Positions 25,950 to 58,102 of a stretch of 64,000 bases of DNA are shown here, piece after piece. Where the stretch lies: NCBI GenBank assembly GCA_963978545.1, contig OZ021727.1, positions 48,149,385 through 48,213,384 of the forward strand, read 5' to 3'. Below the pieces are notes generated by a model. It ran no database searches, was not told the DNA's origin, and saw nothing but the letters and a program-made list of their open reading frames with translations. Positions within the stretch are counted from its first letter, which is position 1; every line of letters begins with the position of its first letter. The DNA comes from Linyphia triangularis (Eukaryota > Arthropoda > Arachnida > Araneae > Linyphiidae). The translations under genes and the position numbers were made by a program.

Positions 25950-26190
25950 GATTTTAATGAGTGAAGCGAGCTTAATGCTTACGCAGCAATGAACCTTTCA
26001 GAGAGCGAATCGAGCTTATGCTTACTCAGCAATGAACCTTTCAGAGAGCGAAGCGAGCCTATGCTTGTATAGCAATGAACCTTTTAACGAGTAAAATAAG
26101 CCTGTGTTTATGTGTCCATGAACTTTTCAGTGAACGAAGCGAGCTCGATTTTGCGTAGCGATGAACCTTCCTGCGAGCGAAGCGCCAAAA
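25950..26190. repeat. ~43-bp minisatellite, about five copies
   Basis: Units built on CAATGAACCTTTCAGAGAGC plus GAAGCGAGC recur about every 43 bp (AATGAACCTT near 25,988, 26,031, 26,074, then diverged copies near 26,117 and 26,160). It adjoins the right end of the Helitron-like element and shares its GCGAAGC core. Confidence 0.85.
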
Positions 26191-26295
26191 ACTGGGTCTT
26201 AATATACACGAATGACAGATTTCCGTGAGGCCTCACAGCTAGCTAAAATATTGCACATGTTAAAATTTCGTAGCGAAGCACGGGTATTTAGCTGG

Positions 26296-29200
26296 TAAGA
26301 AGTATTTTAATGTGCAGTCTAGTATTATATTCGATTATACTTGTAATATTGTGAACATAAGTTATGACAATTAATTTATATTTATCTATTTTATGATTGT
26401 TGAAGTTATTAAAATTATGAAGATGTTTATTCTATAAATTAACTGTAAGTAAAAAATAAAATTTGAATATAATATAGTTCGACTTTTCTTTCAATCACAA
26501 ATTAAAAAGAAAAATAATATTTTTTCACATAAAACGTCTTCACTGAATATTAATTATCTTGACTCTTACATGGTAAAAATATTTCATAAAAGCTAAATTG
26601 GGATTTGTTAAATTTTGATATAGATGGCATCACTATTCAAATTTTCAATTAATTATTATTAAAAATCAGTTTTACGATTATTTATAAGTATATTACGATT
26701 TTGAAGTCACAAACTAACTTAGTGCGATTATACGATCCTCAAACTTTATTAACAAAGCTACGTCAATAAGAACTACCATCAAACATAACTTTTCCCATTT
26801 AATAAGAATATGGCTTCGTCGAATTCAGCACTTCGTAATACTGTACGAATCATCCGCTCAGGATTTTTTTTTCATACAATGCTTTGACGTTGCTTGTAAT
26901 GAAAACAATACCTTCCTTTTTTTTCTAATCATATTTTCAAAAAAAAAAAAAAAAATACGAATTCTCGATTAGAACTATCAACTTCCCATTCAGCATGCAG
27001 CCGCCATTTTGTGTGGGCGTTACTTCTTCGCATACTGACAGGAAAATTGACCAATGGCACATTCTCATTCCCTTTTATGATTTGAACCAATGTGAGGAAT
27101 GCTTAAATGCTGCAGGGTGCTGTATATACTTACTGGGTTGTCGAAGTCTTATTGGAGACTTTTCCATGATGAACAAAATCTACTATGTTCTGCAGCAATG
27201 GTTAATGTAAATTTTTCTAACAAAGCAATTACTTAAAAAAATTTAGAAGATGTTATTTTATAATGTGTTATTTTAAACTTTAATAGGCAACAAATGAACT
27301 TCAATTAGTTGAAAAATCACTAATATAAACAAAATTGCAATTTTTTAAAAAAAAATTCTGGACGTCTTAATCGTGAATTAGAAAATAAAGTGTTGCAAGG
27401 CGTGTTTAACAGTCTTTTTATTTTGCCGATTGTGATATAGATAAGAATAAAGTAATGGCTCTAAATTGAAAATGTATATATATATGTTTAATACTACACA
27501 AATTTGTTGAATAATTTTCGCAAGTTGCAAGTGTTTATAAAAATTTAAGTACATTAAAATGTCCATATTTTTTTAATGAGTGTATTATATCGAATTTTGA
27601 ACTAAAAAATATTAGAAAAAATTCTAAAGTTTTGAAAAAATCCAATACATTTTTAGTTTTATTGAAATATTTTTTTTTCCCAAATCCCTAAAATAAAGGA
27701 TTAGAAAAGTTAAGAATTTTTTTATAGTTTAATATTAATAGAAATTCGTATTGGTAACTAACAGAGACTGCAAATCAAAAATAATAATAACAATGAGGGG
27801 GGGGGGGGGGATTCGAATTATTAAATATATATATATATATATATTTTTAAACTAAACATCTCCCTTTAATATATTCTAAGAAATATTTCCCCCTAAAATA
27901 TGGAGAAAGATTCGTTCTTGGAAAGGATTTTAATATTTTTTCGAAGTGAGAAGAAATATCCTCCTGTATTGGCTACATTTTTTAGTAAAACTGATATGAA
28001 CCCTGCAGATATTTGAGCATCTATATGTTTTAGTAATAAGCAAGTGCCATTAGTTTCTATAATTGTTTTGTACTGCAAACTCTATAATTTACGGAGCGAA
28101 TTTTAAATTAGAAACTTTTTTTCAGCGGCAGAGTTTATTTTTTTTTTCTGTTAATTTCCATGCAAGTTAAAAGGACATTGTAATTATTGTAATGGGAAGA
28201 TTGCATTCATAATTTTTTTTTACATACCAGTTGTATAGATAAGTGCATCTATCAACTGCTCTTTTGTCTTGTACACATCCAAAACCTCACACTTTTTGTA
28301 TCAATTACAAAGTTTGTTCAATCATTATTCAACAATAAACAGATGATTTTATTTTCCTATAAACTTAATTTTTATTTAGGGGCTCAATCGAAGGCAATGC
28401 ATCTTTTGAAGTGAATTGTGTAATTCGACTCTATTGAAAGAGACGAAGCTGTGCATGGGGGAGAAGAGATTTCATCAGTTCAGTCTAGACAAATATTTAA
28501 ATTTAATTTGAAATTGTTTTAGTTAAAAAAAAAATCTCACAAAATGGTTCTGTTTGCACCCCCTTGTCAATTTGGCGCTCTAAGCGTGTGCCTGTTAGGC
28601 GTATACTTAAAACCGGCCCCCTGTTTGTTTATTTGCCAAAACATTTCAATGAACTTCTATGAAAAAAAAAAAAACTTTTGGAATCTACTTAAAATGAAGT
28701 TTCACGTTTAAGAATAAACAAAGTTTTTTAAATGACCCGGGCCTCTCAAAAATATCTATAGGTCACCGGTTATCAAGGGTACTTTGTAGATTAATTCTCA
28801 CTTTATACTAAACCTTTGTTTAAGAAACAATACCATTTTTTATAATTAACTAATTATTTTGACTAAAATTTAGTTTTTTCAATAAACATTGTTTGCCTTT
28901 GAGGTCAGAGCTTGCTAAAGACCCCATTAAGGTTTATCACTGTTCACTCGAACCAGAAAGATTATTTACTAAGCTTCAAAATATCAAAATGATAAAAAAT
29001 CGGATAGTTCTCACTCTGATAGAGCAGACATCCATCAGAAACAAATATATGGCTAGTTAAAAATTTGCCTTAGGCTACAAGCTGTTGGTGGTTCAAAGGT
29101 TTTCTTAAAAAACTCCCCCTTCCCTTCCCTTCCCTCCCACAGATTCCCATAGTCCCTGGTTCCTCCTCTTGTGGTTTGCGTCTGTTGAACGGTGTTAAAA

Positions 29201-31744
29201 AAAATGGTTTTAGAGGTCGTCTGCAAAAGAGTTTTCGGCATTTTTTGTCTTTTTGTTTTGCAATTTGGATCCTATAAACTAAAAAAATTGTTTTTAAAAT
29301 TTATTTTCAAGATTATGTTAACAAGTAATTGCGGGCCCTTTTTGGCAAGCCGGCCCCCTATAATATGCCTGTTTAGCCCCCCTTGTCGGCGGCCCTGTTC
29401 ATCACCAAATGTTAACATATGAATAACTGAAAGTAAAAATTTGTGACATTTCACCAAAAACATTTAAATTCATTTTAAGCATAACATTATTTGTTCATTA
29501 ATTGTTTTATTTCCGAGAAATGCAAAAGTTTAATATTTTTTAAAAGTACTATTTATTTTTAAAATGATTATATTTTCAATCCTACCATATTCCTCACATT
29601 CTTATGAGCAATCACAATGCATCTTTAAAATCAAATTAAAATTCTCTCATTCAATTAACCAATAAATAAAAACATTTTATTTTACGTATAATTTTGCAGT
29701 TGCAGTTGCTTATGACGTAACAAATATATGCTTTACTTGATGGACCTGGTCTGTAAATAATATTCACTAAGAAGACCCGTTCATTTCTTTTCTTGGAAAC
29801 AGATTGTTTATTTTTATTCCTCTTTCGTCTGCTAAACAAAATGGAATCCATAACTAAATTAACATATTGGAACAAATAAGTATTTCTGAAAGCAAAGAAA
29901 ATCAATAAAAATCATCAATGCTCAAAGTTTGTGTTTTTCATTTTCAAATATATGGGTTTTTCAAAACTGTATCAAATTGTGTAATGCATGTTGATCTCAA
30001 TCGTCGTAGTATATATACCTGTTGGGAAAAAATTAACTTCATCTTGATGATAAACTTATCACCTAATTTACTATTTTATTGTTGAGGAATTTCAGGAAGA
30101 ACCAATTAATAAACTAAACACAGCATAATTTTATTTTTATCTTGTGAGCTGTAATAGTTGTCAAAATTCAGCTCTAACCTATGCAAATCTCTAAAAGTAT
30201 TTTGTTATTATTTTAGATACAGTTGCATTATTGATACTTCTGTATTTTGTAAAAATTTTGATAACTTGTGGTGGAGAATATTTTAACATAAAAAAAAAAG
30301 GGGGGGGGGGGGATACTTAGTTTTAACTGCAAACAAAATTATCTAACCTTTCCTAGTATCTGTAGTTCAGCAGTACCTCAACTTATTTCTTGAATTAGAA
30401 ATTGAAAAAGCTTATTGTTATTGAAATGTTTAAACTGGAATTTTTCAATGGCTTACAGGATAGTCTTAAATTTCAGGTTTTAATATTTTGGCCATAAGCT
30501 ATGACTTTTTATATGATATCAAAACTATTAATTCTCATTACTACCACAAAACATCAAAGTTAATTGGCATAGTAAAAGTTAGACTTAAGTGAGTTTGGTC
30601 AATAAAATAAAAATGAACATATTTTTTCTTTAAAACAATATGTTCATTATTGTTTATTTATACAATAATAAAAAATACTTATTTCTATAAAAATTTTATT
30701 TTTAAAACATAATATATGCTATGACAAAAAGCAGCAACATAAGTTTATTTTTTGGTATTGTAAATTTCCACTTCAGAATATAGTACACTTTTATTTTCTA
30801 GCAATTTCTATCAAAGTTCCACTTATTTTATTGTGCATTGCAATAATTTTTGTATATTTTATAATAAAACATGAAAAAGAAGCTATCAATGCATAATTGT
30901 ATATTTGCATAACTAATTTTATTTCCTTATTACTTAGGATGGAAATCTTAGAGTTCTCATTCCTGGAATTTATTCAATGGCCTGCTGCCTAAGTGAACGA
31001 AGAATCATATTACTGTTTTCTCTCTATTGATGTAAGTTAACTTTTCCCATATTTATTTATTACTAGGTATGGCACTGTTATTTACCTTCAAATAGAAATA
31101 TTGAAAACATGATCTAGAATCATTTACTTATAATAAAGTTATTCCTTGAAACATTTTAAGTAAAAAATGTGCAGAAAAAATACCATCAAAACTACACATG
31201 CACCTGTAAAAACTCAAACTATCTAAAATATTTATTTTTTAATTATGTATAAATAAATCGCATTTTAAACTCAGATGGGTAAATGGTTTTGAAGGGCAAT
31301 TTGACTTGCATTGCAAAATTTTAAGCATGCATTACACTAGGTCAAGTTAGTTGAGCATTGAGCCTGTAGTGGATTGTTAGTTTTGTGTTTATATACTGGT
31401 ATGCATAAAAGTTGTACTGCCTAGTATGGCTATTCATTTTACAACGACATTTCTGCAGATCTGTATGATTGCTTGTACTAGGTTTGAATATTGAACAACC
31501 AAGTATTACACTCTCAATAACTCAGTTGTAAAATAAATCTCTTGTGTTTTAAAGATGTTGGTTCCCAATCTGGGGTCTGGGAGTTAGCAAAAAAATTAAA
31601 ATTATATTTCATTCAGGATTAAAATGGATTAATTGATGGAACAGCTCTGGGTTCCTAAATTTGAATTACAATTCGTATTGCTGGTTGATATAATTTCTAG
31701 GAACTTTCCAATATCTGGGTACCAGATAAAAAAACACTAAAATG
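26296..31744. other. Non-coding DNA, no gene supported
   Basis: Mainly AT-rich with an AT run (27,824-27,844), G runs (27,796-27,810; 30,300-30,312) and an A run (26,938-26,955). About 28,556-28,620 and 29,325-29,400 contain GC-rich phrases (GGCGCTCTAAGCG, CTTGTCGGCGGCCCTG) that look like ends of old hAT-like repeats. A 95-bp segment at 30,940-31,033 has a plausible acceptor and donor (GATGTAAGTT), but its frame is closed; it is not called. Confidence 0.45.
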
Positions 31745-31920
31745 CAAACCTAACTCATCCAAACTAACAATCTTCAAATTATTTATAATTCCTATAACAA
31801 ACGGTAAACATTTAGGCTTGGCGATACTTTTACGTTTAATTTAAATACATAAATATTTATGCTTGGCAACATTTGTGCCAACTGGTACCCTGCTAACAGG
31901 AAAGTACCATTTTCTAGTAC
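31745..31920. repeat. Local duplication, copy 1
   Basis: AACTCATCCAAACTAAC, then TTCCTATAACAAACGGTAAAC and GGCTTGGCGA, then GTGCCAACTGGTACC and AGTACCATT appear in the same order at 32,415-32,615. The two copies are diverged and differ by internal insertions. Class unknown. Confidence 0.65.
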
Positions 31921-32414
31921 TCTATATTTTCATCAAAACATTTGGAATATACTGAGATCATTAAACAATACCTCACCAATTAGTAAAATGTGCTTGTTGT
32001 TGTTATGCATGATGCTGTCACAAACTACTACTTTCCTAAATGTGTAACCTCACCAACAGAGCATAATCACACATATGCCTTTTATAAATAATTTGATTTT
32101 TCTGAATTTTGAAAACCAATTAGAATTTTTCCAGCCACAAACATATGAATAATCCTCATTATTTGCTTTTCTATAACTCTTTGTGACCAGTATGGTTTAA
32201 TGATAATGTCATTATAATTTTAAGTTTATGGCAAGATAAAAAATTTATATTATGTATTTTATGTTGTTCACAAGTATTTAGATTTTATGAATGTTTTTTT
32301 TTTTTTTTTTTTTTGTTTTTTTTTATGAATTCTTTTTTTAAAACTTTTGATATTAAGTTAAATGGATGCTATTTTGTTAGACAGATATCAGATAAAAGTT
32401 GCCAAATTGCAGCT

Positions 32415-32615
32415 ATAACTCATTCAAACTAATAACTTTCAAATCATTTAAATTTCCTATAACAAACCATTATAGGATTGCTATAGTAACCCTATAACAA
32501 ACCGTAAACATTTAGACTTGGCATTACATTTACTTGTCATTTAAGCATGTCAACATTTAGGCTTGGCGACAACTGTGCCAACTGGTATCTTCCTAACTGA
32601 AGAGTACCATTAAAT
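32415..32615. repeat. Local duplication, copy 2
   Basis: Second copy of the 31,745 segment, longer because the CCTATAACAAACCGTAAAC part is itself partly doubled (32,454-32,510). Confidence 0.65.
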
Positions 32616-35600
32616 GCTCTAAAAACAACAAAATTAATATACTTTTTAAAAAGTGGTTATTAATTTTAGTTCAAAACACTTACCTGCAACTGTTTATCAA
32701 AAATTCTATAGTTAGGAAACTGTATCTAATTTGTCTGAGAAGGACATTATTCTAATATTAAGTCAATGCCAAAAGAAATAAAACAATTTCACAAAAGCTT
32801 TGAATCCATTTCTTATGAGACGCTTACAGTTATTCTTTTATTATGCCAATGTACATGCAGAACAAATTTGGTAAGGATATGCTGATTGATAAAGAAACCT
32901 TTATGGAACAAGTTCACTTACAAACAAGATTGATTTTTGTAGGTAGATTAGATATGTTTACATTACGAATTCCAATAATCTTTCATTTACTGGAATTCAC
33001 AATTTGGAATACTTCTTCTTTGTTTTGGGTTAGTCAGATATGTGGCACCTCTGCTTTAGGGTAGCATTTTGTACCATAATGGAATACTTCATATACTGAA
33101 AAAATTTCTTTCCTGTGATTGATTTTATAAACATTTTCATGAAATTTTTTATTCATGTTATGTTGTTTAAGAATATTTTTTTCTTGTCAATTACACTTGG
33201 TGTAGTATATAGAAGGGAATTGCAGAAAATAGGTTTGCAGAAAATATTAGGTAATTTTGTGATAAAATTTTTAAAGATTGTATTGCATTTAAGAGTTTTC
33301 TCTTGAGTTTGATTTCTAATATATATGTTTAGTTTTAGATTGTCAATTGAATCATGTTATCCACTTTTGCATTTTAAATTTTTCAATTAAATGTGTGTAT
33401 CATTTTCTTTTTTGTGGAATATTGTCTGTTATGTATTTTCTTTTGCTAAACTTTTTAACTTTTATTTACACAGTGATAAATATCTAAATATTAAAATTAT
33501 GTTAAGTATGTATATTCGTATGAATTGCGTTTTATTATATATATTTAACCTTGTTTTCCTGTAAACCTCTTATCAGATGCTACATTTATCCACTTATAAA
33601 ATTATCAATACTTTTTTTTTGTCTTGTACATAACTCATAGATTTTTCCTTTTGTGTGTGTCTTTTCTAATAAGTTTTGAACTATTTGTACAATATTTACT
33701 TTTTCAGCTGTTTACTGTATGGTTTGTTGAAATATGAATTTTTATCTAAAAACATGATATTTGAAAACATTAGCAACCCTCCAATTATTCTGTTGCTATA
33801 ATTTTAAAAACTAACAATATTAAGTAATATATGATTACCCAATCTTTTTACCATGGTAGCTGTTTGCAAAAATAATTTGCCATCAATTTAATGTAATCTT
33901 TTCTTACTATCACAATTTAGACAATTGCAAGTCATTTTTTTTAAGTATTCTGAGAACAAGTTTTATAAACATTATACCAACCCAATTTATAACTGAAAGC
34001 CATCATATTCAGTTGCCTGGAGTTTGTATCCTAAGTTCTCCGTTTAAAAATCAGTATACAATGAGGAACTTGCACAAGTGAGGAACATGAATATTTTTTT
34101 TATTTTCTAGTGTTATCCAATGAATATATTTGAGCAGTGCAATTATTTTTTATCTTTATGCTTTCAATTAATAAAAAATCAAATTTGAAATCAAAGCAAA
34201 AGTCCTGCTACCAAAAACGCGTAAAAAACCATGACGTTGTTACGCATAAATTCTGTCAAAAATCTGGAGAAGAACCTGGTCTAAAGCAGGTTTTAGACTG
34301 GTTTGTCATCTGCGCGTTGACGTGACACGTAAAAGTAGCTTTTTCTCGCCAAATCGCAAAGGGAAAAACTAAATATTTTTTTAACTATCTCTCCGAGCTC
34401 AAATTTTTGAAAGAATGGTATTGTTTTTCATGATTTTTTATTTGCTTTTATTTAAAAATAAAACCAAAAAACATGAAAGTTCCTCATTCTCATTTTTTAT
34501 TCTATGAAAAAGAGTCAGATGAATAGATTACAAATAAGAGTCTCCATTAGAAAGTAATGTTGTATCCATAAATTTGAGAGCCTCTTTATAGTATGTTGTG
34601 TACTTCACTTTTGTGTCAAAAGGAATTTTCTACTCAGCATAATTTTTTACTCTTAGATAAAAAGAAATCTCCTTGATTTCCATTAGTTTTGAGCCTTTGT
34701 TTGAAGCAAAGAATTGCACAGCTTTTAAACGATTATGAGCCTCAATATCCTATTTATTATTCTCAGTTAAAACTACAACCATTTCACATATTCTTCAGTT
34801 AAGTACTTGAATTCTCAAAAGATAAAACTCATTTTAATAGTAAATAGTTATAATTTTAAATTTATCTTAGTTAGCTAAGTTTTTGTAGAGATGAAGGATT
34901 GAGAGGGATAATTTTTTTATCTTTGGCTTATTGGTCAAGAATGGAAACTATTGATCCAAGCAAATCATGCAATAAATTGTAGGTTACAGGACTGTTTATC
35001 TATACAAATGAAAAATATGTAAAAAAAATTGTTTATCAAAGTCACCATGCTTACATTTTCAAATTATCTAACCATGTTTTGTAAATACACATGTAAGTGC
35101 TGAATAGTGTTTAGAGGAATATAGTACCATTCTTCATTTCTTTTTCGACATTACAATTCGCTTCAAAACCCGTCGGTTTCTTTTACTCAGCTTCTTCTTC
35201 CGTCCTTTATTTTGTTTTGACGAACTTGTCTTGCCACACTTTGTGTATGCTGTCATGACTTTAGACACTGTACCTCTAGAAATGCCTAAAAGCTGAGATA
35301 TTTCAGCCACACTTGCTACAGCTAGTCGGGTACCTACAATTTGAAGTCTGTGATGTCTGACATTTTACGCTTTTGAAAAAAATGCAAGTCCAACTTCACT
35401 AAAGCTACTTCATACATACCATGGTTTATAATTTTAATATTAAAAAAAAACAAGTAACTTGGGATATATTTTATTTCTTACAAAGAGCTTTCTTAAATGT
35501 CACTTTAATTCACTGGTGTTTCCATTATTTTGATAATCACCTTTACATGCAAACTTGCATGCATTGTTAATTCTAATGAAAATTTGCTGTTTCATATACT

Positions 35601-37503
35601 GAACTATAGATTGGAAAAATTAATTTATTTTCAAAATTTTATATTTAAAAATTGTTTTTACCCTAATAATTATAGATGACGCAGAAATTACATGCTAATT
35701 ATTTTAATGTTAATGTTGCACTGTGCCATCACATTGAATTTTTTTAAATTTTCTAATGAGTGGTAATCTAAGTATACGTTATTTACCCTAATATATTGTA
35801 TATATAGTATTTGTGTGTGTATGAATATAAATGTTATTTTGCCATATATGTTTCTGGTTTTTATTGCAAAATAAAATAAGTTATATTATAATAAACCTAA
35901 ACAAGATATAAACTCTGCTTAAAATTTGTTTTTGAAGAAGTCATTGTATAATCACATCTTTATAATTGGAATTTAAAACCTCTATATTTACAGTTGCGAT
36001 TAAATATTAAAAATAAATGAAGAGTAAAAGAAATTTATGAACATTTAAAATAATATAGATTTTTATAGCTTGGTTGAGGCACTGAGATACATAAAGACTT
36101 TTTCTAAAACACAACTATATGGATCAAATATGCAACGATTACACACCTCTGTTCGGTAGTGAAAATTTTTACATTTTACTTTTAAGAAGCTATTTTGTGA
36201 CTGTATTGAATCTTTTCATCAGCAACTACATTTAAGAAGTATTACTATTTCTTTCTATTCATCACCTAAAATGTGTGATTTCTTGCATTTTTCCTATTCT
36301 GTTCAGTTACGTCATTGCAGTTTTAGAAGAAGTTATAAATTTATATCCAATGAAGTTTGATATGTATTAATGTCTCCCTTTGTTTTAAGTTTTGATTGCA
36401 ACTTTATTTTGTTCTCATTCTTTTTATTGAAGTTAAAGTTTTAATTAATACCTGTTATTTGAATTCCAAATTATTTATTATTACTAAACTATTTACTACT
36501 AAATTATTTTTTTGTAGAACTGATGAATGAAATTGATATAGAAATTCATTGCTTTTGAGAATACAGTTTAAAACAATTTACATGTAGCAACTAACTGAAG
36601 ATCCATAACACTCATGTTTCTGAAAACGATCTTTCAACAACTGTTAATTTTATATCTTCAAATTATGTTCCTTTTATTTTATTTGTAATTGTCAAAACTC
36701 ATATATATTTTAAAGTTTTGTGCTGTAAGTTTAAACTCTTAAATTTTCATTGTCATGATATTGTAAATTAATCTAACATGAAGCATTACCTTCATTATTG
36801 TCAGAAAAGATCACACATGCTGTTTCCACAATTAACTGTTCAAAAACTACTAACAATGTTCGACAAAACTATACAATAACAAAAATTGTGGAGTTTTTTA
36901 ATACTAAATTGTCTTTTTGACATTTCTTTTTTGTTATTATTCTTTTATTTTTTAAGACAAATTCATAATTTTAATAGTAATTATGTATTTCAAATCTTCC
37001 CTATATCAATATCATCATATAAGGATCAAATTATTGCTACATGTTGCATATATTGTTAGATTTGAAGATTTAAATTTTGTTTTTTTGCAATATTTACAAT
37101 GATGTTTTCTATTACTGTAACATAATGTATCAACATATGTCAAACATTAAAAAAAAAAAAAAAATTCTTCTATTGTTTTAGATGTTATGCATGATGTTTA
37201 TTATTATTATTAGAGTGACCTAACAGAACACTTTTATTTCACCCTTTTTTAAATTTCAAACTTCATTATTTATGTACTGTTTCAATATATGTTGTCTTTT
37301 TAAGACAATAAAAAGGTTCATACTTTTACTTTTTTTTAACCTGTCACATGTATTAAAAAACTTATCTGAAATTAAATCTTCATCTTCTATGCATTTCATA
37401 AATTTCTATTTATCTATAATATATTCATGTATATGTTTTTCAAGAAATCTTTTTTTGTTGTACTTCCACAAGCCACTATGGCAGTGTTTTATTTCATTTT
37501 CAG
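32616..37503. other. Non-coding DNA, may contain upstream exons of the microexon gene
   Basis: Apart from the Tc1 fragment at 35,134 no coding segment is supported. The microexon gene beginning at 37,618 needs a 5' end, and this stretch or sequence further left should contain it, but I could not identify a first exon with confidence. Short open frames (32,843-33,064; 34,137-34,325) match no family. Confidence 0.4.
35134..35363 (-). pseudogene. Tc1-family transposase fragment (DNA-binding domain)
   Basis: The minus strand encodes MSDITDFKL, then after a stop and a frame change GTRLAVASVAEISQLLGISR continuing as GTVSKVMTAYTKCGKTSS and a basic GRKKKLSKRNRRVLKRIV. This is the N-terminal paired-type helix-turn-helix region of Tc1 transposases. 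A TGA follows soon after (35,134-35,136) and no catalytic domain is present. It is a truncated, frameshifted relic of a different Tc1/mariner lineage from the Tc3-like copy at 19,621. Confidence 0.8.
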
Positions 37504-37540
37504 AAACACCTGCTATATATATTTACTCTAAGAAATATGG
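37504..37540 (+). pseudogene. Probable decayed microexon upstream of the array
   Basis: After a good acceptor (TTTTCAG) the sequence AAACACCTGCTATATATATT resembles microexon 9 (AATCCTGCTATAGAAAATTC), and the following ATGGCAA resembles its TTGGTAA boundary, with the GT donor changed. It lies 114 bp before microexon 1, the normal spacing of the array. The likeness is moderate and could be chance in AT-rich DNA. Confidence 0.4.
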
Positions 37541-37617
37541 CAATAATTCTTTAATTCTTTTGTTGTTGTTTTTACTTTACACTTCTTCTATACATTTATA
37601 CTTTATTTGATTTTCAG

Positions 37618-38655
37618 AATACTGCTTCAATAATGGATAGATTGGTAAGCAATATATAAATTATTATTTATATGCATATTAGAAAGTCCCTTTAAATACT
37701 CATGTATTTTGTTTATTTTATAGAATCCTTCTTCCTTAATGGACAGATTGGTAAGTAATAGGGAAATATTTTCTTTTTAATGTTTGTTTTACTGTTTCAC
37801 TATACACTAACTCATGTATTTTATTTCTTTACAGAATCCTGCTCATTTAATAAACAGATTGGTAAGTAATATTACATTAATTTTTTTGCTTTTCAATTTT
37901 ATTATGTTCACTTTTAATACAATTATGCTATCATTGTATTTCTTTTACAGAATGCTACTGCTTTATTTAACAGATTGGTAAGAATCCTGAAATTGTATAT
38001 AATTTTATTTTCATTGTGATTTTTTACCAAATAATTACACTAGTGCTTTATTCCTTTTGCAGAATCCTGCCCGCTTAATAAATAGAATGGTAAGGAATTT
38101 AAAAATACTCGTTTCTGATTTTGATTAAACTCTTTATCTACATACTTACATTAAAATTTTATTTCTTGCAGAATTTAGCTGCTATAATGGATAGATTGGT
38201 AAGAAATGAGCAACCGAACTTTTAACTATTTATTTGTATTTTGCCTCTAACATTAACATAATTTCTTATGATTTTTAAATTGTTGTTATAATGAATATCT
38301 CTTTTGAGGAATATAGTGAAAATATATTTATATCCTGTTACTACGCTAATGGTAGTTTTTACTTACAATAGTGTATTATTTTCTTTACAGAATCCTGCTT
38401 CTTTAATTGCTAGATTAGTAAGTAATAAAGAAATTAATTTTTTACATTTTTATTGTATTATACTATATCTATATACTTTTATACAGTCTTTTTTTTCTTT
38501 TACAGAGCCCGGTTGCTATAATGAATAGATTGGTAAGAAATATTTTGAAATAAAATTACATTCTCTTTGGATACATAAAGTCTTTATAAATAGTTGCACT
38601 AATTTTTTATTTCATTTTACAGAATCCTGCTATAGAAAATTCTTATCAAGTATTG
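37618..38655 (+). repeat. Tandem array of nine 27/33-nt microexons
   Basis: Exons at 37,618-37,644, 37,724-37,750, 37,835-37,861, 37,951-37,977, 38,063-38,089, 38,172-38,198, 38,391-38,417, 38,506-38,532 (27 nt each) and 38,623-38,655 (33 nt). Each is preceded by AG (a pyrimidine-rich tract and CAG in most) and followed by GTAAG. Each is phase 0 and a whole number of codons, so any subset can be joined without a frame change. Products fit N-P-A-x-L-[MI]-[DN]-R-L (for example NPSSLMDRL, NPARLINRM, SPVAIMNRL); the ninth is NPAIENSYQVL. Start-to-start spacing is 106-117 bp, except 219 bp between the sixth and seventh, where a decayed copy sits. Confidence 0.85.
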
Positions 38656-40234
38656 GTAAGATATGTCAATATGAATCATTTCCCTTTTTTTTCACTATTC
38701 TTCTTCTGGTTACAGTTTTATTTTTTTCCAGGATCCTTCAGCTCCAGTGGATGATTTGGCCGGAAGTATAATGAATATGCGCTTCATACCTCATTCGTTT
38801 TTAGTGATTCCAAATGATATGAAGACATTTGAGTGTCTTCCTTCACTTCAGGGCAGATGCATCATGGCTTTTGTTGTGGAGGTGTTTAAACAAAATGTAA
38901 AGTTTACTTTCAAGGATGTTAATAATACCCGAAAAGAAAAATGGGTGTGCATGGTTAATACAGATGAGATAGCAGAAAAAATAAAGGCATTCCCCCTTCC
39001 TACAAGATTTGAAACGCATTTGATGGAAGCCTATAAATATGTGGAATATAATTCGATGGCTTGGTTAAACCATTTTTCAAATGTAGATGATTCCTGCTTT
39101 AATCATTTTGATTGGTCTACAGCCTACTCACGAACCAAATGGCAACACACCAGATTAAGCGACATGTTGGTGTTCAATTCCTATGGAGAAATTGATGACG
39201 AAAAGACTGTGAAGCAAATTTTAAAGGGAGAAAATTACACCCCAGTAGACACGTTTCGCCTGGCCTGCATTTATTGCATTGAAGATCTGATATGGACACT
39301 GTGGCCGAGTGTTAAATCTCACTTCTGTCCTCTAATGCAGCGGATTCTGGAACAAACTCCTGACAGATACATAATTCCTGATCGTGTGGAAGTAGTGTAT
39401 TTTGCCTGTTCTGCTATAGCCAAGGACAAAAAGAAAGGGATTGAATTAATACGATGTCCCTGTGAGCTGACGAGAAATTGGTTCGTGTATTTGTTCAATA
39501 GCACTTTTGTGCTTAAAAACATTGCTGGAATCAGGTACTTTGTGCAGAAACTCACACCTTTAAAGAAACAACAAACTTTAAATCAGGTTCTTGAAGGATT
39601 ATTTAATGACAAATACGACATTGATCCTCCAATTTTCTTTGTAATCCTAACTAACTTGGATGCAAAGAACAGACTCAAACTTTTTAAATCGCATCCCCGA
39701 CGTGTTGCGGCACAATTCATAAATTATCCTCTAGTTAGAAGTTTTATGTTTATCCTTGAGTTAGCACAACCATTCTTTATGGATAGGGATTTCGGGGCAA
39801 TTGTATATATGTTGATGTACCATTCCAAAATAAATGAACGATCGCTGAAAAAGCATTACGAAAACCCATTCCCTGACTGGATTCCCATTGTATGGGATAG
39901 AGGTCCCGTCAGGCATCAGAAATATTTCATCGACCAAAGTATCCTATACATACTACGTCGCCTTGCTTGTGATTCACCCAGGTATAAATTGAGGAATGAA
40001 TATAACATACAGAGAAAAGAAAGGTACGCTATAGATTATTGGAAGACAGAAAAAAAGTTGCGAGTTATTTTTCAGGATAGAAATATTTTGTTGGATTATC
40101 TTATGTGGGAAAGAAGTTACAGGAAAAAAGATCGTCTAAGGAAGGTGTTCGAAATGCATATACCACCAGATGAGATGGATGAGGACATTAAAGATTTCCT
40201 TTCCGTGTACGAAGATTCCGTTGCTTCACTTTGA
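37618..40234 (+). CDS. Host gene with microexon-encoded 9-residue repeats, unknown family (5' end not found)
   Basis: The coding part seen here is nine microexons (listed as an array) plus a terminal exon at 38,732-40,234. The terminal exon opens after TTTTTCCAG with DPSAPVDDL, itself a diverged tenth copy of the repeat, and runs 500 codons to a TGA. It is hydrophilic overall, rich in Trp, Phe, Tyr and Cys, with phrases such as LACIYCIEDLIWTLWPSV and IPIVWDRGPVRHQKYF; no signal peptide or clear membrane segment appears in this part, and I recognise no domain. Introns are 76-90 nt, apart from one of 192 nt. AATAAA signals follow at 40,645 and 40,810. I could not locate a start codon or first exon; microexon 1 contains an in-frame ATG, but initiation there is unsupported. 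Possibly a lineage-specific family; that is inference. Confidence 0.75.
38276..38302 (+). pseudogene. Decayed microexon inside the double-length intron
   Basis: GTTGTTATAATGAATA (38,282-38,297) matches GTTGCTATAATGAATA of microexon 8 at 15 of 16 bases, but the acceptor and the GTAAG donor are lost. It lies 104 bp after the start of microexon 6 and 115 bp before microexon 7, exactly where a missing unit should be. The host intron is 192 nt, close to two normal introns plus 27 nt. Confidence 0.7.
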
Positions 40235-41546
40235 AATGTTTACTTTTGTGATAGAATTTCATGATCGATGAAAAATGTTTGCATAAATTTTTAAGATTCT
40301 ATACACAAATGCCTTTTCAATGACATCTGTGGAATCTCTGGCATTCACCGTCCATAGGCATTTTGCCATCAATGGCATTTCTAATTAAGATAGGTTTTAT
40401 TGAATTCATTCCACTAATCTTATTTTTAGTCTCTGTTAAAAACTCCTGGATATGGGCATTAACTTTTTTTTAAAGAATATACACTAGACGAGATTATATT
40501 ATTTTAAGATACTGTCTTTTTTATTTTAAGATTTCGAAAGTTTCTTTGCCACTTGATGTTTCATGCAATGAATGGTGCATTTCGGTACGTTTCATGTTAA
40601 TGCGTTTAGTACAAAGTGATTTTTTAGCAACTAATACATTCCAAAATAAATATTCGTAAATTTTTAAATGCAGCGGTATAATAATTTTTACGAATTAAAA
40701 TCAAATTTGATTGAAAGTTTTAAAACTTTTTATTAGATTATCTTAAAAACAACTACATCTCCAAGATGTTAAGCTGTAAAGAAGGCTTTTGTGTTATTGA
40801 ATTTTAAAAAATAAAACTATTTGTTGATGTCAAGGTATTAAAGAACTCGAAGAATCAATCGAATTTGTCCAGGGTGCACGTTTTCTGAGCAATGCTTGGG
40901 ACGTAACTGTAGGGTGTATGTTTTTGTCAAAGACACTGTTATTGGTAAATATGTTCCTGCTAATGGTAGAGGTATATGTTTAATGTTGAAGCGCTTTGTG
41001 AATGCTGGCATCCTCTGCTTGATTTAGAAGTGTAACATTTTTAGAACGTGGATGTCTTTCTGTGCAAAGTATGAAGAGTGAAATGTTTGTGTGTTATTAA
41101 TACCATTGTATATCAAACCAAAATCGATGGTTAAAAGAGTTCAGTATCATTACTAAAGCGCGGAACAATGTGTGGATCACGTTGGATTGTGACTGAATTT
41201 GTTTTTTCTCAAATGATGACCACCCGAAGTTTAAATTAACGTTCTGCGATGCCAAGTAAAACTCTCATTTAAAACTATGGTTTCTTTTATGAATAACTAC
41301 ATGTAAAGGGGAGTTTGTATTGATAAGATTTTAAGCTAGTAGATAGGAATTTTGAGTGTGAAATCCAATACATCTGGATCGTGAGAAAAGTTTGGAAATA
41401 TTGAGAAATATTGAGTATTTAAATCTTTCAAGGCATATGTAAGAAAGGCCATGTAAAGATAAAGTTAACTACGACTGGTTAGAGTAATTCATCTGCTGTT
41501 TCTTTCCTCACATTATCAAGTGACGGAGTGCATATCATAGATTCAG

Positions 41547-44131: not shown

Positions 44132-44715
44132 AGTAGTTAGAAATTGGGCATCCGGGGCCATGGCGCAGCGCGCAGAGGGATGAGGGATGATGACGTCACC
44201 GGAAGGGGCGTGGTCGGATATGACGTCACCGGAAGGGGCGTGGTCGGATATGACGTCACCGGAAGTCACGTGACCGGAAGTGGAGTGGAGTTGTTTCCCT
44301 CCTGCTGCTGTTTTAGTTTCGGTTTCGTTATAAGCTGTTTGTGTATGACGTCACAGTGGGTATGACGTCATAATGTGTTTTATATCAAAGTTTTGAGCGG
44401 TGGCAACACTTTTTAGTTTCGGTTTATCTAACAGACGGAGTTGAGTTGTTCTAGGACTGCTTGTAAACGAATAAGTTAGAGTGATAGGTTTTTATTGAGT
44501 GACGTCACAATAGGTATGACGTCATAATGTGTTTTATATCAAAGTTTAGAGCGATGGCAACACTTTTTAGTTTCGATTTACCTTTAAGATAGAGTTGAGT
44601 TGTTCTAGGGCTGCTTGTAAACGAATAAGTTAGAGTGATAGATATTTTTACTAATGACGTCACAGTAGATATGTCGTCATTCTATGTTAAGATTTACGTT
44701 TTAAGTGGTGATAAC
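44132..44715 (+). repeat. Polinton left terminal inverted repeat (~584 bp)
   Basis: Matches the reverse complement of the right end from AGTAGTTAGAAATTGGGCAT inward to about 44,715. It has three parts: a ~59-bp unique tip; three TGACGTCACCGGAA units at 44,191, 44,221 and 44,251 (30-bp period, with GGGGCGTGG between); and about three ~154-bp units. Eight perfect TGACGTCA palindromes start at 44,191, 44,221, 44,251, 44,346, 44,363, 44,500, 44,517 and 44,655. The open frame at 44,144-44,365 occurs in both repeats but is most likely non-coding. Confidence 0.93.
44191..44290. promoter_or_regulatory. Cluster of CRE, ETS, GC-box and E-box motifs in the left TIR
   Basis: Within 100 bp: three TGACGTCA sites, each abutting CCGGAA (TGACGTCACCGGAA); GGGGCGTGG (Sp/KLF-like) twice; and GTCACGTGACCGGAAGTGG, which holds a CACGTG E-box and a canonical ETS site. 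The same cluster lies in mirror image at about 60,530-60,629. Such a mixture is typical of strong RNA polymerase II promoters. What it drives is unknown: the nearest gene to the right TIR is the AlkB fusion, while the left TIR has no adjacent start. Confidence 0.6.
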
Positions 44716-45220
44716 ACTGGATATATACCAAATTTAGTTTTCAGGTGTTGGCAACGAGTTCTGATCGGTCAGCTAAATGCTCGCTGGTGATTGGTAAGTT
44801 TTAAACATGTGACCAAAAGTTAACTCCTGATTGACTGTTTGGTTTTCTAGCGAGTTACTTACATATCCTTTAGCCAAGTTAAAATACCTGCAACAAAGTT
44901 ACACAAATAAAAATGTTAAATTTGAAAAGTTAATAAAAGGAAGGCCATTTGCTAAGGGTCTAAAGAACCCTAACCCCGAGCTACACGTGACATTTCAATA
45001 TTTTACCAAACAATTGTTAAAATATCGACTATCGGACGTTGCCTTCATGGTAACTCATCTACCCACCCCCCCCCCCCCCTTCCCTAACTAATTTTGAATA
45101 AGTTAAGACTTTAGAATTACAATTAATAAATTTTGAAAAATTATTTATTAAAGGTGAGGACCCACCTCCAGCCCGATACCTCTTTTAGGAAGAATTGGTA
45201 CCGCCTCACTCCACCCTAAC

Positions 45221-45254
<34 letters not shown>

Positions 45255-45612
45255 TTCCAAAGAACGTATGTTTCTTTGAAACTTGAGGTCACTAATCAAC
45301 CATATGATGATATCCTTTAAGAAGATATCTTCACCTCTTAACAATTTTAAAGTTTTAAGTCTAAAAGATTAATGTTGGACACAAACTATTTCTAGAGTAG
45401 AGTTACATTAAAAATTAAATTTAAGAGTGTCCAGTTTTTTGAAGAAGACTTGTGGGAACGTATATTTCCCAAAATTAAATTTAATGGTCACTAACAAAAT
45501 CCTGAAAATATACTAATTTTAGTTTTTATAAAAATTAAGTTAACGTAATATTTTAGTAAAAATAATGACTATAGTTAATGAATTGCGAAAAATTAAGTTA
45601 GAAGAATTAAAT
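44716..45612. other. Polinton left subterminal region, 3' flank of PolB
   Basis: No gene supported. It contains a C run (45,066-45,079), an A run (45,221-45,249) and several short AAAATTAAATTTAA-type phrases. TTTATT at about 45,143-45,148 would read AATAAA on the minus strand and could end the PolB transcript. Confidence 0.5.
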
Positions 45613-48600
45613 TTAAGGAATTTTGTAGTGACCATACGCATAGCTAGTTATACCATCTTCCAACAGGTATCGCTTGTCATCAAATGCCGAGAGCGCTCGC
45701 TTTCTTTGCTGGATGGAGAAAATGTGATGTTTTTCACTACCGATCCGATGCTGAACCACAGACGAAGGTTGTCGATTGAGAAGACAGTCTCTATAGGTCT
45801 GATGTTTTAGCTGTCTTTGAGCTGCTCTTGCGATTCCCTTGGCCGTTTGTTTCTCACCACACTCGCTTAAAATGGAATACATTTTGGAACGAAGCCCTAT
45901 AAACTCCAAAGCAGATTTTCCGTTAAGTTCATCCTTAAAGTAACCGATCTTCTTCTTGTTAGACACATCGTGTAGGGGATGATCTGATGGGTAGTCAGAA
46001 AAGTCAAAAAATCCCTTTAATTGCTGTAAGTCAGCAGTCAGATCAGGGGTGGTGAGTCCATAAGTGAGTGAATCTGTGTCGGTGAATAGTAGACGGGCAT
46101 TACTTCCATACTTCTTCATGATGACATTATAGTGAAAATCATACATTAAAACCTTGCTCAGTTCTAAGATGGCGAAACCAGCATAAATGGGTCTATTAAG
46201 TGTGAGACTCTTCACTTTTCTTTGTACTGCTGCCAAGCTATTATCAAACTCAGTGAAGGCATGGAAGGCAGGAGACGCGACCAGTTTCTTGGCTTTATGT
46301 GGGTTGTTCACCAACTGAACATCCACTCTATTCCTCAGATTTTCCATAGTTTTCCCGAACACCGCATTGTTGAGAAGTTTGAAGAAATCTTTTTCAAACG
46401 ATGTTTTGGCCAGTTTTCTCTGCTCCGTATTAAATGCTATGTAGTCCTTCAGCCAAGGTTGTTGGTAGAATTTTAGAATTCTATGAACTTTAGTTAGTTT
46501 CAGTCCCAAGGAAAGATATAGCTTCAGATTACGATAGTGTATAACATAATTCTTCTTTGACTGAAGATTCGGAACGAGTTTCTCGCTGGAAGAAGCTGGC
46601 TTCATCTGCATTTCTTCCAAAATCTCGAGGGCGGTAGGAGACAGCATATTTGGCTTTATGGTGAAGCGTTCGGGAGCCAGAGGATAATCGTTATGGAGAT
46701 CGTGGAGTTCAGCAGGATAGTCGAGATCCACTTCTAGGATGAAGCCCTCATCTGCATCATCTGCTTGGTCCAAGATGGTTTTAGTAGAGATGTTTTCAGG
46801 GTCCACCCACTGAAAATCACCAACAGGTAAGTATTGAGACATGGCCCAACCTGAAAGAAAAATCCAATTAAATCATTCAATATTAACATAGAAGCTAAAT
46901 AAAAAATGACAGTTTTAAAGTAAATTCCTGCTTACCATAGAGGTTATTGGCATCCAGGTACAATATATGTTTCTTCTCCTCAGCAGCATTATATTCAGGA
47001 CAGTCTGGATGGTTTGCCTGGCTATGACGATGGGTGATGACGGAGACTCCTCCCCGAATACCCTTCTCTATGAAGAGGTGCATGTCGATGTCGGTGAATA
47101 AATCCAAACCGACATCTGACATCTTGAGAGCGGCTTGCCACGCTAACCCCGGAGACGTCATCATGTGGGCGGCGTCTAGCTGGTAAAAGTCCAGAGTTAG
47201 GCGGCGGAAATTCTCGAATACGTCTGCGAGGAGGAGCACATCCGTCTTCACGTACAGGTCGTGATATTCGCCAAGGTCTTTGATGCCGAAAGCTTTCCAA
47301 ACAACTTGAGCATGGCCATAATCTGCATCGGTGATGGAGGAGTTTGTCAGAGTACTGTAGAAGGCTTGCTGAGGTGGCAGAGATGTTTCTTGAAATTTTC
47401 TAACCGAGTCCATATACTCATAAGGGTACACTCCCTTCTTCAGCAAGAGATCTAAGGAAAAAATAAAAAAAAAAATTAAATGATATTGTTAAGAGAACAT
47501 TTATATAATATTAACATTGACTATATTACGTACCATGGTTAGATGCGATAGAACTCTTCAAAATGTGAAACTTGTCTCTCTCCAGATTATCGACAAGTTT
47601 CTGAAGCGATGCATTCAGAAACTGGAGACTGTCAATAAACTGGAGAGTCACCGGGATCTTGTCAAGTTTCTTAGTGATGGAGAAGGAGATGTATTTTTCC
47701 ATCGTTGTAGGGATGACTCCAATGTCATGATCAGCCACTTTCCCTAGCCCCTGCATGATTAAATGCGCATCATAATTCTTCAGGTTGTGGAAGACGCAGG
47801 GAATCATTTTCCGCAACCTGAAGGCAAGGTTACATTCATTGTGGAGCACTTGGCGGAACTGACCGGTCAAGTGATCGTGGTCGTTCACCCGATCAGTTCC
47901 TAGTCGGCCTTTGCAGAGGCCACAGTGTATTGCAGCATTGATAGCTTGCTGGTCTTGGGGAGTGAGTTTCATCGGGACAATGGTGGTCAGCTTCACCGCC
48001 AGCTCGTCCTTTTCATCAATGATGCTCTTGATGAAGTGGTCCACCGCATCCAATCCTCTGTAGACAGCAATAGGTTTGGTCGGCTTCCCATCAGGACCTA
48101 TAATAACATAAGCATATCCGCAGGGAATGTGGGTGGCCGTCTTCACAGTGCTGGAGGGGGTGGTGACGTCCAACTTCTCTACCAAGGCCTCAAAATCTGC
48201 GTATATGATATACGGGACTTTCTGGGTGAACTTGTACTGACTAAATTTCAGCACACAGTCCTTTGGAGTCGGCATCTTGATGCGTTGGGGTGAGTGCTCG
48301 TTACAGTAAGGGACATGTGCTTTGAGAGTCTCCTCCTTGGCAAAACGATGTAGACAAGAATAACAGTAGAAGCTCGTGCCATGATGTTTAGTGAGGCTGG
48401 TGAGAAGCCTGGACATACTCTTAATTAGGCAGTAATGTTGCCTCTCTCCTTCTATGATGTAAAGTAGGTTAATAACATCAGGGTCCTCCCTCTTTGAGAT
48501 ATAAAGGGGTAATATCTCATCATCTTCATAACCGTAGATGTTTATCCTTAAGTTGTTGAGGTTTTCAACTATCCGGACTTTGCAGGGTTGAACGGGACAG

Positions 48601-49531
48601 CTTACATTTCCCATTTTGAGCTCCTGCTCGAATTCTGCATAGTGGTCGACCCTGTATGGATGATTACCATGGGCAATGGGATGAAGGATAGCCAGGACAG
48701 ACCAGATGAAACATTTATTGTCTTCATTCTGGATGTTGAGAACTGCTTGCTTCGCTGCCAACTTGTTGGGTAACTTGAAGTGGCTAGCAGGGGCTAGAGG
48801 TTGATATGTAGCAGTCTTCACCTCCAAATGGATGATTTCATCGAGAACCCATCCAGATCCCCGCTCGATGAATTCATCGAAGGAGGACTTGATTTTTGCG
48901 AAGGCTTGGTCGATGTGTTCAGGGAGGACGCTGTCATCCAGCTCCATCTGCACCTTACTCCGGAAATAGGGTGTGGCATATTCCTCGTCTCCCTCATCAC
49001 TCTTACGAACGAACCGGATTTTAGACACAGCATACCACTTAATGGCCCTCTTCTCTCCCAACTCCTCCTGCAGCACATCCTGAACTTGGGGAGTGCTTTC
49101 CCTAATGAAGAGAAGCAGGTCTCCAACTGCCTCTTCACTCGGGAATAAATGACGGGTGGCAAAGACATCAGACGTCTTCACCTCTACTCTCCTCCTTCTG
49201 GGTGCAGAGGGTGCAGGTTGAATTCCTCCTACTTGGGCAACTCGAAGGTGGGTGAGAAGATGTTGCATCATGACATCTTTACGTCCAAAACTCTTTCCGC
49301 AGTCAGGACAGGCATGAGAGGTGGCGGATTGATGAGTCTTCATGTGTCTAGTCAGATCGGAATTTCGATTGAAGGACTTGCCACATACTCCACAGACAAA
49401 GTCTTTCTTTCCAGTATGGGCTTTCAGATGTTGAATCAAATTCCGCTTCTCCGTGAAGGTCTTGTTGCAGATGGCGCATACCTGTTGAAAATAAAACTTT
49501 GATAAGTTTCGAGAAATTATTTCACTTTAAT

Positions 49532-49580
<49 letters not shown>

Positions 49581-50882
49581 TACATGACCAAGATTTGAAG
49601 CTTGTGCAAGATGGATGGCATGAGAAGGTCTAGCAACAGGAGTCTAAAAGAAAAGAAAAAATTATTTAACATTTAAATAAGCTATTTTAACATATTCATA
49701 ACAATAGTTTATCCTTTGAATGTAATACTTACAGTTTTCTGATGGATTTTTAAATGTCTTGTCAAATGACATTTCTGTACGAAACCCTTCTTACAGATGG
49801 TACAGACCTGTTGAAAATAGAAATTTTGAGTAACATGTTTTTAAAGTTGTTATTCTTTCACTTAAATGATAAAAATAATACATACATGCAAGTCTTGTGA
49901 GGTGGACGAGGCATTAGAAGGCCCAGCAGCAGTAGATTCAACAACAATCTCCTAAAATAAGATATTGAGAAATTATTCTAAGTTTTTTTTTTTTACGTCA
50001 GAGAAAAATTTTGGCATGAATTTGGAGCGACTTTAAATAGTTACAATATTGAAAATTGCTAAGTACAAAAAGTAATGAAAATTTTGGCGTGAATTTGGGG
50101 CGACTTTGAATAGTTACTGCACTGACAATTACTAAGTACAAAAAGTAATGAAAATTTCAGCGTGAATTTGGGGTGACTTTGAATAGTTACAACATTGAAA
50201 ATTACTAAGTATAAAAACATTAAAAATTTTGGCATGAATTTGGAGCGACTTTGAATAGTTACAATATTGAAAATTGCTAAGTACAAAAAGTAATGAAAAT
50301 TTTGGCGTGAATTTGGGGCGACTTTGAATAGTTACTGCACTGACAATTACTAAGTATAAAAAGTAATGAAAATTTCAGCGTGAATTTGGGGCGACTTTGA
50401 ATAGTTACAACATTGAAAATTACTAAGTATAAAAACATTAAAAATTTTGGCGTGAATCTTATACTAATATTCAAGTGAATGACATTTTGAAAAAATATCA
50501 AGTACAAAAGTAATATAAATTATGGCATGAATCTTATACTAATGAATAACATTTAGAAAAAGTTTTAAAGAAGCCATTATTGACGAATTTCACATATAAT
50601 TGAGAAAGTTTTAAGTGAAAAAATCAATTATGCGACACAAATAACACAATTTAAAATTTATCTTAGACATTAAACATTCATCTACTTAAAAGTAACAAGT
50701 TTAATGTTATTTAAAGAATATTCTTTAAGATACATAGTAAGTAATTTTAAAATAAATACAATCTATAAGCATTTAAACATAATTTAAAAATATATTACTA
50801 AAAGAACACTTACTTGGTCATTAAGACTAGAGACAACGACAGCCATGGGAGAAGGAGAACGTGATGATGACATTATAAATAA
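45613..50882 (-). CDS. PolB: Protein-primed DNA polymerase B with N-terminal zinc fingers (seven coding exons)
   Basis: Replicates the element by protein priming. Exons (minus): 50,814-50,882 (ATG at 50,871-50,873), 49,886-49,951, 49,733-49,807, 49,584-49,643, 47,534-49,481, 46,936-47,451, 45,613-46,850. All have GT-AG borders and the phases add up to about 1,320 codons. Residues ~44-64, 89-109, 117-137 and 145-165 are four C2H2 fingers. Then come the Polinton-type DNKCFIWSVLAILHP region, exonuclease motif I (YADFEALVE, ~D516/E518), a C..C...DHDHLTG....HNECN endonuclease-VII-like knuckle (~607-637), Exo II (NLKNYD), Exo III (YVKTD), motif A (LDANNLYG, split by an intron), motif B (KLLNNAVFG) and motif C (FTDTDS). 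No catalytic residue is missing. It is divergent from the capsid block and is the only gene of the element in which I see introns. The zinc fingers are unusual to me for this family; exon 2 and 4 peptides are low complexity. Confidence 0.93.
49512..49578. repeat. Long A run in a PolB intron
   Basis: About 43 A on the plus strand (T on the sense strand of PolB), just downstream of the donor for the 20-codon exon 49,584-49,643. It is part of the intron and may vary in length. Confidence 0.85.
50002..50462. repeat. 73-bp tandem repeat with 218-bp higher-order period, in PolB intron
   Basis: Seven units of about 73 bp, built on TTTTGGCGTGAATTTGGGGC plus GACTTTGAATAGTTAC, recur with the GC of GGCGTGAA at 50,014, 50,087, 50,160, 50,232, 50,305, 50,378 and 50,450. 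Units 1-3 and 4-6 match as triplets (73+73+72 = 218 bp): the first has GGCATGAATTTGGAGCG, the second TGCACTGACAATTAC, the third TTTCAGCGTG. It lies in the intron between the first two coding exons. Confidence 0.93.
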
Positions 50883-51344
50883 CTGAAATTGAAAAATATA
50901 TATAAATATCGAAAGAAAAAACATACATTTTCAATACAAGTTGGAAATAATTTTTATGTAATACTTGAATCGACTACTTTAACATGATGCGATTGTTAAG
51001 CCTAGCAAATGCACGCGGTACTTAAGCCTAATAATGCACGCGATACTTAATCTAGCAAATGCATAGTCCATTTCAATATATAAATTTAACACACGATAAA
51101 TAACTTCAGTTAGAATAATTTGTCTGCTAATATTAAATAATATATATACATCTTAAATTTACTGAACGAATAATTTAAACCTTTAACATGTAATACAGAA
51201 AAATATTTGAATGCACGCGATTCTTTGCCCTAATACATATAGTAAAATAATTTAACATTTAAATACACATGTTACTTAAAACATTTGAATACACATAGTA
51301 CTTAAAAGATACTAACATTTCACAAATAATAAAAATTCACTTAC

Positions 51345-51465
51345 CGAATAATTCAGTTGAAATCAGCAAAAAGCTATAGCAGTAGCAAATACAATAAGCA
51401 AGCACGATAAGCAAATACTAAGCAAACACGATAAACGTCTTTCGCACTCAGGAATCTAAGTAGAA
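51345..51465 (-). other. Predicted 5'UTR exon of PolB
   Basis: On the minus strand a donor (ATTCG/GTAAGTG) ends at 51,345, and an acceptor TTTTTCAATTTCAG ends just before 50,882, nine bases ahead of the PolB ATG. The upstream limit is set about 30 bases after the TATA-like box at 51,492-51,498. The start site is an estimate. Confidence 0.5.
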
Positions 51466-51491
51466 ATGACAAGACGGCAACCGATAGCGTC

Positions 51492-51553
51492 TATATATGA
51501 AGGGTGACCACGTGACTTCACCGACCAATCAGGTTTCGCGCTAGAGGGCGCTG
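51492..51553 (-). promoter_or_regulatory. PolB promoter: TATA, E-box, CCAAT and CTCF-like site
   Basis: Reading toward PolB (minus): a CTCF-like GCGCTAGAGGGCGCTGC region (51,537-51,553), CTGATTGG (reverse CCAAT) near 51,525-51,532, CACGTG at 51,509-51,514, then TATATAG at 51,492-51,498. Order and spacing are those of a conventional RNA polymerase II promoter. The CTAGAGGGCG and CTGATTGG pair occurs again next to the AlkB gene at 59,656-59,682. Confidence 0.6.
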
Positions 51554-51639
51554 CTTGGTTCTAACCGGTCAGAGCGGGTGGGGAGCGAGACTAGGTATGT
51601 TTCAACACGCTTCAACGCGTTTGCGAGTTGTAGTGTAAC

Positions 51640-51700
51640 AATCTTGCTTAAAACAGTTAAAGTGATAGATAATTTATTCGTGACGTCATAGTGTAGCGAA
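51640..51700 (+). promoter_or_regulatory. TIR-like CRE module upstream of the plus-strand gene block
   Basis: AGTTAAAGTGATAGATAATT then CGTGACGTCATAGTG closely resembles AGTTAGAGTGATAGATATTT then AATGACGTCACAGTAG of the terminal-repeat unit (44,628-44,667). TGACGTCA is at 51,681-51,688. It lies in the 1.4-kb gap between the divergent PolB and integrase genes. From 51,700 to 52,278 I see no gene and no clear TATA box; the integrase transcript start is not identified. Confidence 0.5.
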
Positions 51701-53322: not shown

Positions 53323-53359
53323 ATACTACTAGCACATGTTGCAAGACTCATTTGCTATC

Positions 53360-56308: not shown

Positions 56309-56332
56309 AGAAAGTATTTAAACAGTAACACT

Positions 56333-56971: not shown

Positions 56972-57013
56972 TATAAAAGTGAATGACTTTGAAGATAAGT
57001 ATCATTTAGCAAG

Positions 57014-58004: not shown

Positions 58005-58102
58005 TTCAATAAAGCGATATTACTTTAACATTTTTTTTTCTTCTATTATTTCACATAAGAAAATCACACACACACACATATTTCCATTGAATAATTTTTT
58101 AT
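58005..58102. terminator. Convergent poly(A) region
   Basis: AATAAA for the plus block is at 58,008-58,013. On the minus strand the AlkB-fusion stop reads TAAATAAA (58,098-58,105), so its signal overlaps the stop. The 98-bp gap holds both ends and a short CA run (58,066-58,079). Confidence 0.7.

Follow-up and report, generated by a model that had tools for sequence, protein, structure and literature searches.

An array of small exons sharing one phase is predicted within a 64,000-nucleotide stretch of genomic DNA of the spider Linyphia triangularis, which is referred to here as the window. The preferred reading, to which a probability of roughly 0.45 is assigned, is that these are serially spliced phase-0 microexons, each of which would add one nine-residue repeat to the N-terminus of a protein, and that the number of repeats is likely variable. 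When the variable and the constant kind of inclusion are taken together, a coding microexon array is quite probable on the basis of the sequence. The elements of the locus, in positions of the window, are as follows.

37618 to 37644, plus strand: predicted microexon 1, 27 nt, NTASIMDRL
37724 to 37750, plus strand: predicted microexon 2, 27 nt, NPSSLMDRL
37835 to 37861, plus strand: predicted microexon 3, 27 nt, NPAHLINRL
37951 to 37977, plus strand: predicted microexon 4, 27 nt, NATALFNRL
38063 to 38089, plus strand: predicted microexon 5, 27 nt, NPARLINRM
38172 to 38198, plus strand: predicted microexon 6, 27 nt, NLAAIMDRL
38391 to 38417, plus strand: predicted microexon 7, 27 nt, NPASLIARL
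38506 to 38532, plus strand: predicted microexon 8, 27 nt, SPVAIMNRL
38623 to 38655, plus strand: predicted microexon 9, 33 nt, NPAIENSYQVL, matching the units closely in its acceptor and first three codons only
38732 to 40234, plus strand: terminal exon, an open frame of 500 codons plus stop (stop at 40232-40234)
40645 to 40650, plus strand: AATAAA, read from the sequence as a possible polyadenylation signal

Each of microexons 1-8 (37618-38532) is exactly 27 nt long, lies in phase 0, and is bordered by AG upstream and by GTAAG downstream, and microexon 9 has the same borders and the same phase at a length of 33 nt, which is a multiple of three and leaves it symmetric as well. Up to position 38731 the donors are GTAAG in nine of nine cases and the acceptors AG in nine of nine, and the nine introns measure 79, 84, 89, 85, 82, 192, 88, 90, and 76 nt. 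The first-pass annotation of this DNA had proposed nine phase-0 microexons of 27 nt at a spacing of about 110 bp; eight were recovered exactly, including their AG and GTAAG borders, while the ninth retained the proposed phase but not the proposed length. The spacing was likewise found from start to start of the units at 106-117 nt, with the exception of a single step of 219 nt, within which a decayed unit is located. That all units are symmetric members of a tandem repeat was borne out, as every one is in phase 0 with a length (27 or 33 nt) that is a multiple of three.

The terminal exon opens with DPSAPVDDL in its first nine codons, a diverged tenth copy of the repeat that had also been recognized in the earlier annotation. 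In a scan of the window with a profile built from the eight 27-nt units, this site at 38732 had the highest score outside those units (8.4 bits), followed by 4.9 bits on the minus strand and 4.1 bits on the plus strand; the scores of 50-57 bits obtained by the eight units themselves are circular, since these units built the profile. When AT-rich control segments served as the reference, the beginning of the terminal exon resembled the units in mean score (P 0.003) but not in best score (P 0.10). Its frame, in AT-rich DNA, is uninterrupted over 500 codons.

Across the two strands of the 64-kb window there are 11 instances of the strict pattern AG-N27-GTAAG, eight of which constitute the array. 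The expectation for this pattern in 915 nt amounts to 0.02, and the corresponding Poisson P of approximately 1e-18 exaggerates the significance, since units that arose by duplication do not count as independent. Despite this kinship of the units, coincidence of the borders is excluded by the Poisson P. Looser donors added 12 places on the plus strand and 18 on the minus strand of the window, none of which was unit-like.

Analysis of the eight 27-nt units indicated constraint that is specific for the predicted reading frame. Stop codons are absent from frame 0, and number 11 in frame 1 and 6 in frame 2, with 8, 1, and 5 in the three reverse frames. A stop-free frame 0 was obtained in 9.4% of 5000 permutations of the 27 columns, whereas the pairwise BLOSUM score was equalled or bettered in only 0.58% of these 5000 (P 0.006), and in 1.9% of the 470 stop-free permutations. 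Amino-acid identity did not exceed that in column permutations (P 0.14; 0.51 for frame 1 versus 0.50 for frame 0), and since it is unexceptional, the coding signal rests on the stops and on conservative changes. Variation is least at the second codon position (0.16), as compared to 0.38 at the first and 0.34 at the third (permutation P 0.02), and dN/dS among the units is approximately 0.53.

Mean nucleotide identity among the eight exons is 70%, compared with 63% in the 20 bases upstream of them (ungapped), and with ungapped intron identities of 39% (60 to 21 bases upstream) and 44% (7 to 46 bases downstream). Gapped alignment of the intron cores gave 68% identity versus 64.5% (SD 5.5) in shuffles, which is within one SD; the introns, being near shuffle level, therefore retain little or no trace of shared descent. 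Moreover, identity between units is flat with distance along the array (means of 18.0-20.3 of 27 bases at distances 1 to 7), and this independence of distance implies that the array is old, with neither recent renewal nor fresh duplication. Taken together, the excess of exon over intron identity, the stop-free frame 0, and the conservative substitutions make the units look like old duplicates that were retained as coding sequence, and the coding constraint supports the predicted units as true exons.

Besides the intact units, one decayed unit and one possible further relic were encountered.

38276 to 38302, plus strand: decayed unit in the 192-nt intron, GTTGTTATAATGAATA, with AG and GTAAG lost
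37504 to 37530, plus strand: possible second, weaker relic, with the TTTTCAG acceptor intact and the GT donor absent at the expected place

In the former, GTTGTTATAATGAATA at 38282-38297 is identical to microexon 8 in 15 of 16 bases and is in register with the spacing of the array. The mean score of this decayed unit over the eight units was above that of all 374 AT-rich control segments from the window (374/374), and its best single score was equalled or exceeded by three of the 374. The candidate at 37504 is weak, with a P of 0.035 for its best score and 0.008 for its mean score. The decayed unit is situated in the sole double-length intron while its neighbours are intact, which indicates that the gene tolerates the loss of a unit; loss of one unit without loss of the others is what frame symmetry predicts.

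Because the unit lengths are divisible by three and the borders are in phase 0, the reading frame survives both the skipping and the loss of a unit. In the mechanism proposed here, the shortness of the introns, 76-90 nt in eight cases out of nine, would lead the spliceosome to pair splice sites across the intron, and could thereby render exons of 27 nt recognizable. Serial splicing would then yield up to nine repeats followed by a domain of 500 residues, and any unit that is skipped in splicing or lost by mutation would leave the frame intact. A graded number of repeats through exon skipping is a prediction of this model. A search for Dscam-like selector pairing gave no sign of regulated exon choice: a common selector was absent, and the AT-rich sequence contained four inverted repeats, all of them weak.

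The main alternative is that every transcript contains all microexons, which would result in a fixed repeat domain of approximately nine units, the symmetry being a consequence of tandem duplication of a phase-0 exon. The uniformly strong donors (GTAAG in 9/9), which fit constant inclusion as well as they fit variable inclusion, and the similar intron lengths agree with this alternative, and the equal divergence among the units suggests a stable array. Against it, the loss of at least one unit has left the rest of the array unharmed, so that the exact number of units is not essential over evolutionary time, and constant inclusion is considered a real but somewhat less likely possibility.

A second alternative concerns the beginning of the gene, as no first coding exon was established in 26001-37617, where 12 GT[AG]AG donors were scanned. 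The sole start candidate with a strict donor is a phase-0 ATG exon of 35 codons (105 nt) at 32766-32870, a length that is reached in 14.5% of shuffles, and loose donors gave 23 start-exon candidates, none of which was convincing. Since no first coding exon was established, translation may start within the array or within the terminal exon. The units could then constitute, wholly or in part, a 5' leader, with translation starting from an ATG in the array or from the terminal exon (codon 14 or 16, MNMRF...), and the repeats would be partly untranslated or would serve to set the start site. Indeed, an ATG in frame 0 is present in five of the eight units, and codons 14 and 16 of the terminal exon are in-frame ATGs as well. 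However, the frame-specific constraint in the units, with zero stops and conservative changes, argues against a leader, as does the fact that units of 27 and 33 nt preserve the frame, something for which a leader would have no use, and this alternative is regarded as improbable. Finally, the units could be old exons that are no longer spliced, in a gene that is silent or is expressed without them, a reading that accords with the presence of a clearly decayed unit and of a possible second one in the same array but is very improbable, because unused exons are expected to decay along with their introns, whereas in eight units the splice borders are intact at either end and the frame is still open, next to ungapped introns that are only 39-44% identical.

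On the preferred reading of serially spliced coding units, the predicted repeat has a regular composition. Seven of the eight 27-nt units begin with N and the other with S; microexon 9 likewise begins with N, and the terminal copy with D. Proline occupies position 2 in five of the eight. L or I occupies position 5 and R occupies position 8 in 8/8 units, and position 9 is L or M. N, S, and D are typical helix N-cap residues, and proline is typical of the first helical turn. The hydrophobic moment peaks at 100 degrees, the value for a helix, among the six angles tried, with a permutation P of 0.09 that is not significant. Each unit might thus form a short helix capped by residue 1, in which L/I5, M/I/F6, and L/M9 would lie on one face, and about eight similar elements for binding or packing would be lined up ahead of the protein's unique domain. 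Of the 72 residues in the eight units, 17 are P, T, or S, with 7 P, T, or S residues at positions 2 and 3 combined in several units; N, A, L/I, M, and R prevail in the motif.

Relatives of the terminal-exon protein were sought in several collections. The full protein yielded 4564 candidates in a collection that includes spiders, none at E <= 1e-3, and its region 112-212 yielded 15 candidates, none at E <= 10; because the protein search requires shared exact words of five residues, a fast-evolving family could be missed. Comparison with genome contigs gave 49 pattern matches and comparison with viral contigs gave three, of which none was confirmed in either case. No homologue with a conserved arrangement emerged from these searches. 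There were no paralogues of the terminal exon within the window (the best other tblastn match had an E of 1.1), and no NCBIfam domains in its protein. A Pfam flagellar match (E 0.14 for the full protein, E 0.021 for a piece) stayed below the cut-off of 24.2 bits and was attributed to chance, and the one PDB match (E 0.54) was rejected. An atypical C-terminal SOCS box had been suspected, and was discarded when C-terminal pieces gave no Pfam family at E <= 10. A single-sequence AlphaFold2 model of the terminal exon alone had a mean pLDDT of 37.5, which is too poor for use.

The window also contains other repetitive and mobile sequences. A Polinton/Maverick-like element at 44132-60688 begins approximately 4 kb downstream of the terminal exon, and is delimited by inverted arms of 516 nt (44132-44647 and 60173-60688) that are 98% complementary. 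The following Polinton-like features were assigned within it.

47526 to 49526, minus strand: zinc-finger reading frame, with C2H2 fingers at the frame start
52255 to 53322: integrase with chromodomain
54513 to 55832: capsid
55790 to 56308: adenovirus-type protease
56309 to 56971: packaging ATPase

The frame at 47526-49526 (minus strand) displays a weak match to recombination endonuclease VII beside its C2H2 zinc fingers. Among the best 120 of 2692 matches to the capsid, the spiders Araneus ventricosus and Stegodyphus dumicola are the best named ones at 71% and better rows reach up to 84%, and the lower-scoring rows within these best 120 include sea cucumber and coral. The capsid thereby points to a spider as host, with a strength that the mobility of the element limits to likely. 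The element further contains a 2OG-Fe(II) oxygenase frame at 58103-59527 on the minus strand (E 2e-23), which is possible cargo, and a 73-bp tandem array with a higher-order period of 218 bp at 50005-50457. Elsewhere in the window, a fragment of a Tc3-like transposase is located at 20253-20828 (HTH_Tnp_Tc3_2, E 8e-7, below the Pfam cut-off), and a 146-bp tandem unit in 8.7 copies at 24524-25763 is followed by 43-bp repeats at 25959-26084.

The microexon genes (MEGs) of schistosomes had been named as the closest analogue of the array, and this comparison holds up. The MEGs are described as containing tandem symmetric exons of 6-36 bp in multiples of three (PMC3961193), with microexons contributing up to 75% of the coding sequence (PMC4015677) or most of the coding region (PMC4350168, PMC4015677). 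The same sources state that MEGs mostly have a signal peptide and generate protein variants by alternative splicing, and that antigen 10.3 (MEG-4) contains alternatively spliced 27-bp exons (PMC4015677, PMC4350168, PMC3961193). The spider array resembles them in its tandem symmetric phase-0 exons, whose lengths (27 nt in eight, 33 nt in one) fall within the MEG size range. It differs in the share of its known coding sequence that is contributed by microexons (249 of 1749 bases, 14%), in the long unique terminal exon that follows the microexons, in that no signal peptide exon was found, in that its units are near-copies of one nine-residue motif, and in its host, a spider rather than a fluke. 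As far as the predicted exons allow, the array is MEG-like in exon design, and falls short of MEGs in the share of coding sequence that the microexons contribute. The open-licence literature yielded no earlier account of an array like this from a spider, in agreement with the first-pass annotation.

Aphid bicycle genes encode secreted proteins with paired CYC motifs. In these arthropod genes, too, numerous small internal exons share a phase; they are almost all in phase 2, with approximately 17 exons per gene on average (PMC9168663), whereas the spider units are in phase 0 and nine in number. The mucin domain of chicken Muc13 is described as having one repeat per exon, with at least 12 nearly identical 20-residue repeats of the Pro/Thr/Ser type (PMC1552070). 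One exon likewise corresponds to one repeat in the spider array, but these repeats are nine residues long, rich in N, A, L, I, and R, and 70% identical in nucleotides, and Pro, Thr, and Ser (17/72 residues) do not dominate them as in the mucin domain. A more far-reaching proposal, namely that the locus gives rise to a graded set of proteins in which an orphan domain is preceded by anywhere from zero to nine helical, N-capped nonapeptides, and that this arrangement arose independently of the schistosome MEGs, is speculative and rather unlikely in its full extent.

The best-known cases in which an array of symmetric microexons diversifies a secreted protein come from parasitic flukes. The spider array, with its equally diverged units and with introns near background, would show that this design arises and persists elsewhere, and it would provide a simple gene for testing the serial recognition of 27-nt exons. 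Moreover, because aligners easily skip exons of 27 nt, N-termini of this kind are probably missed by standard gene prediction.
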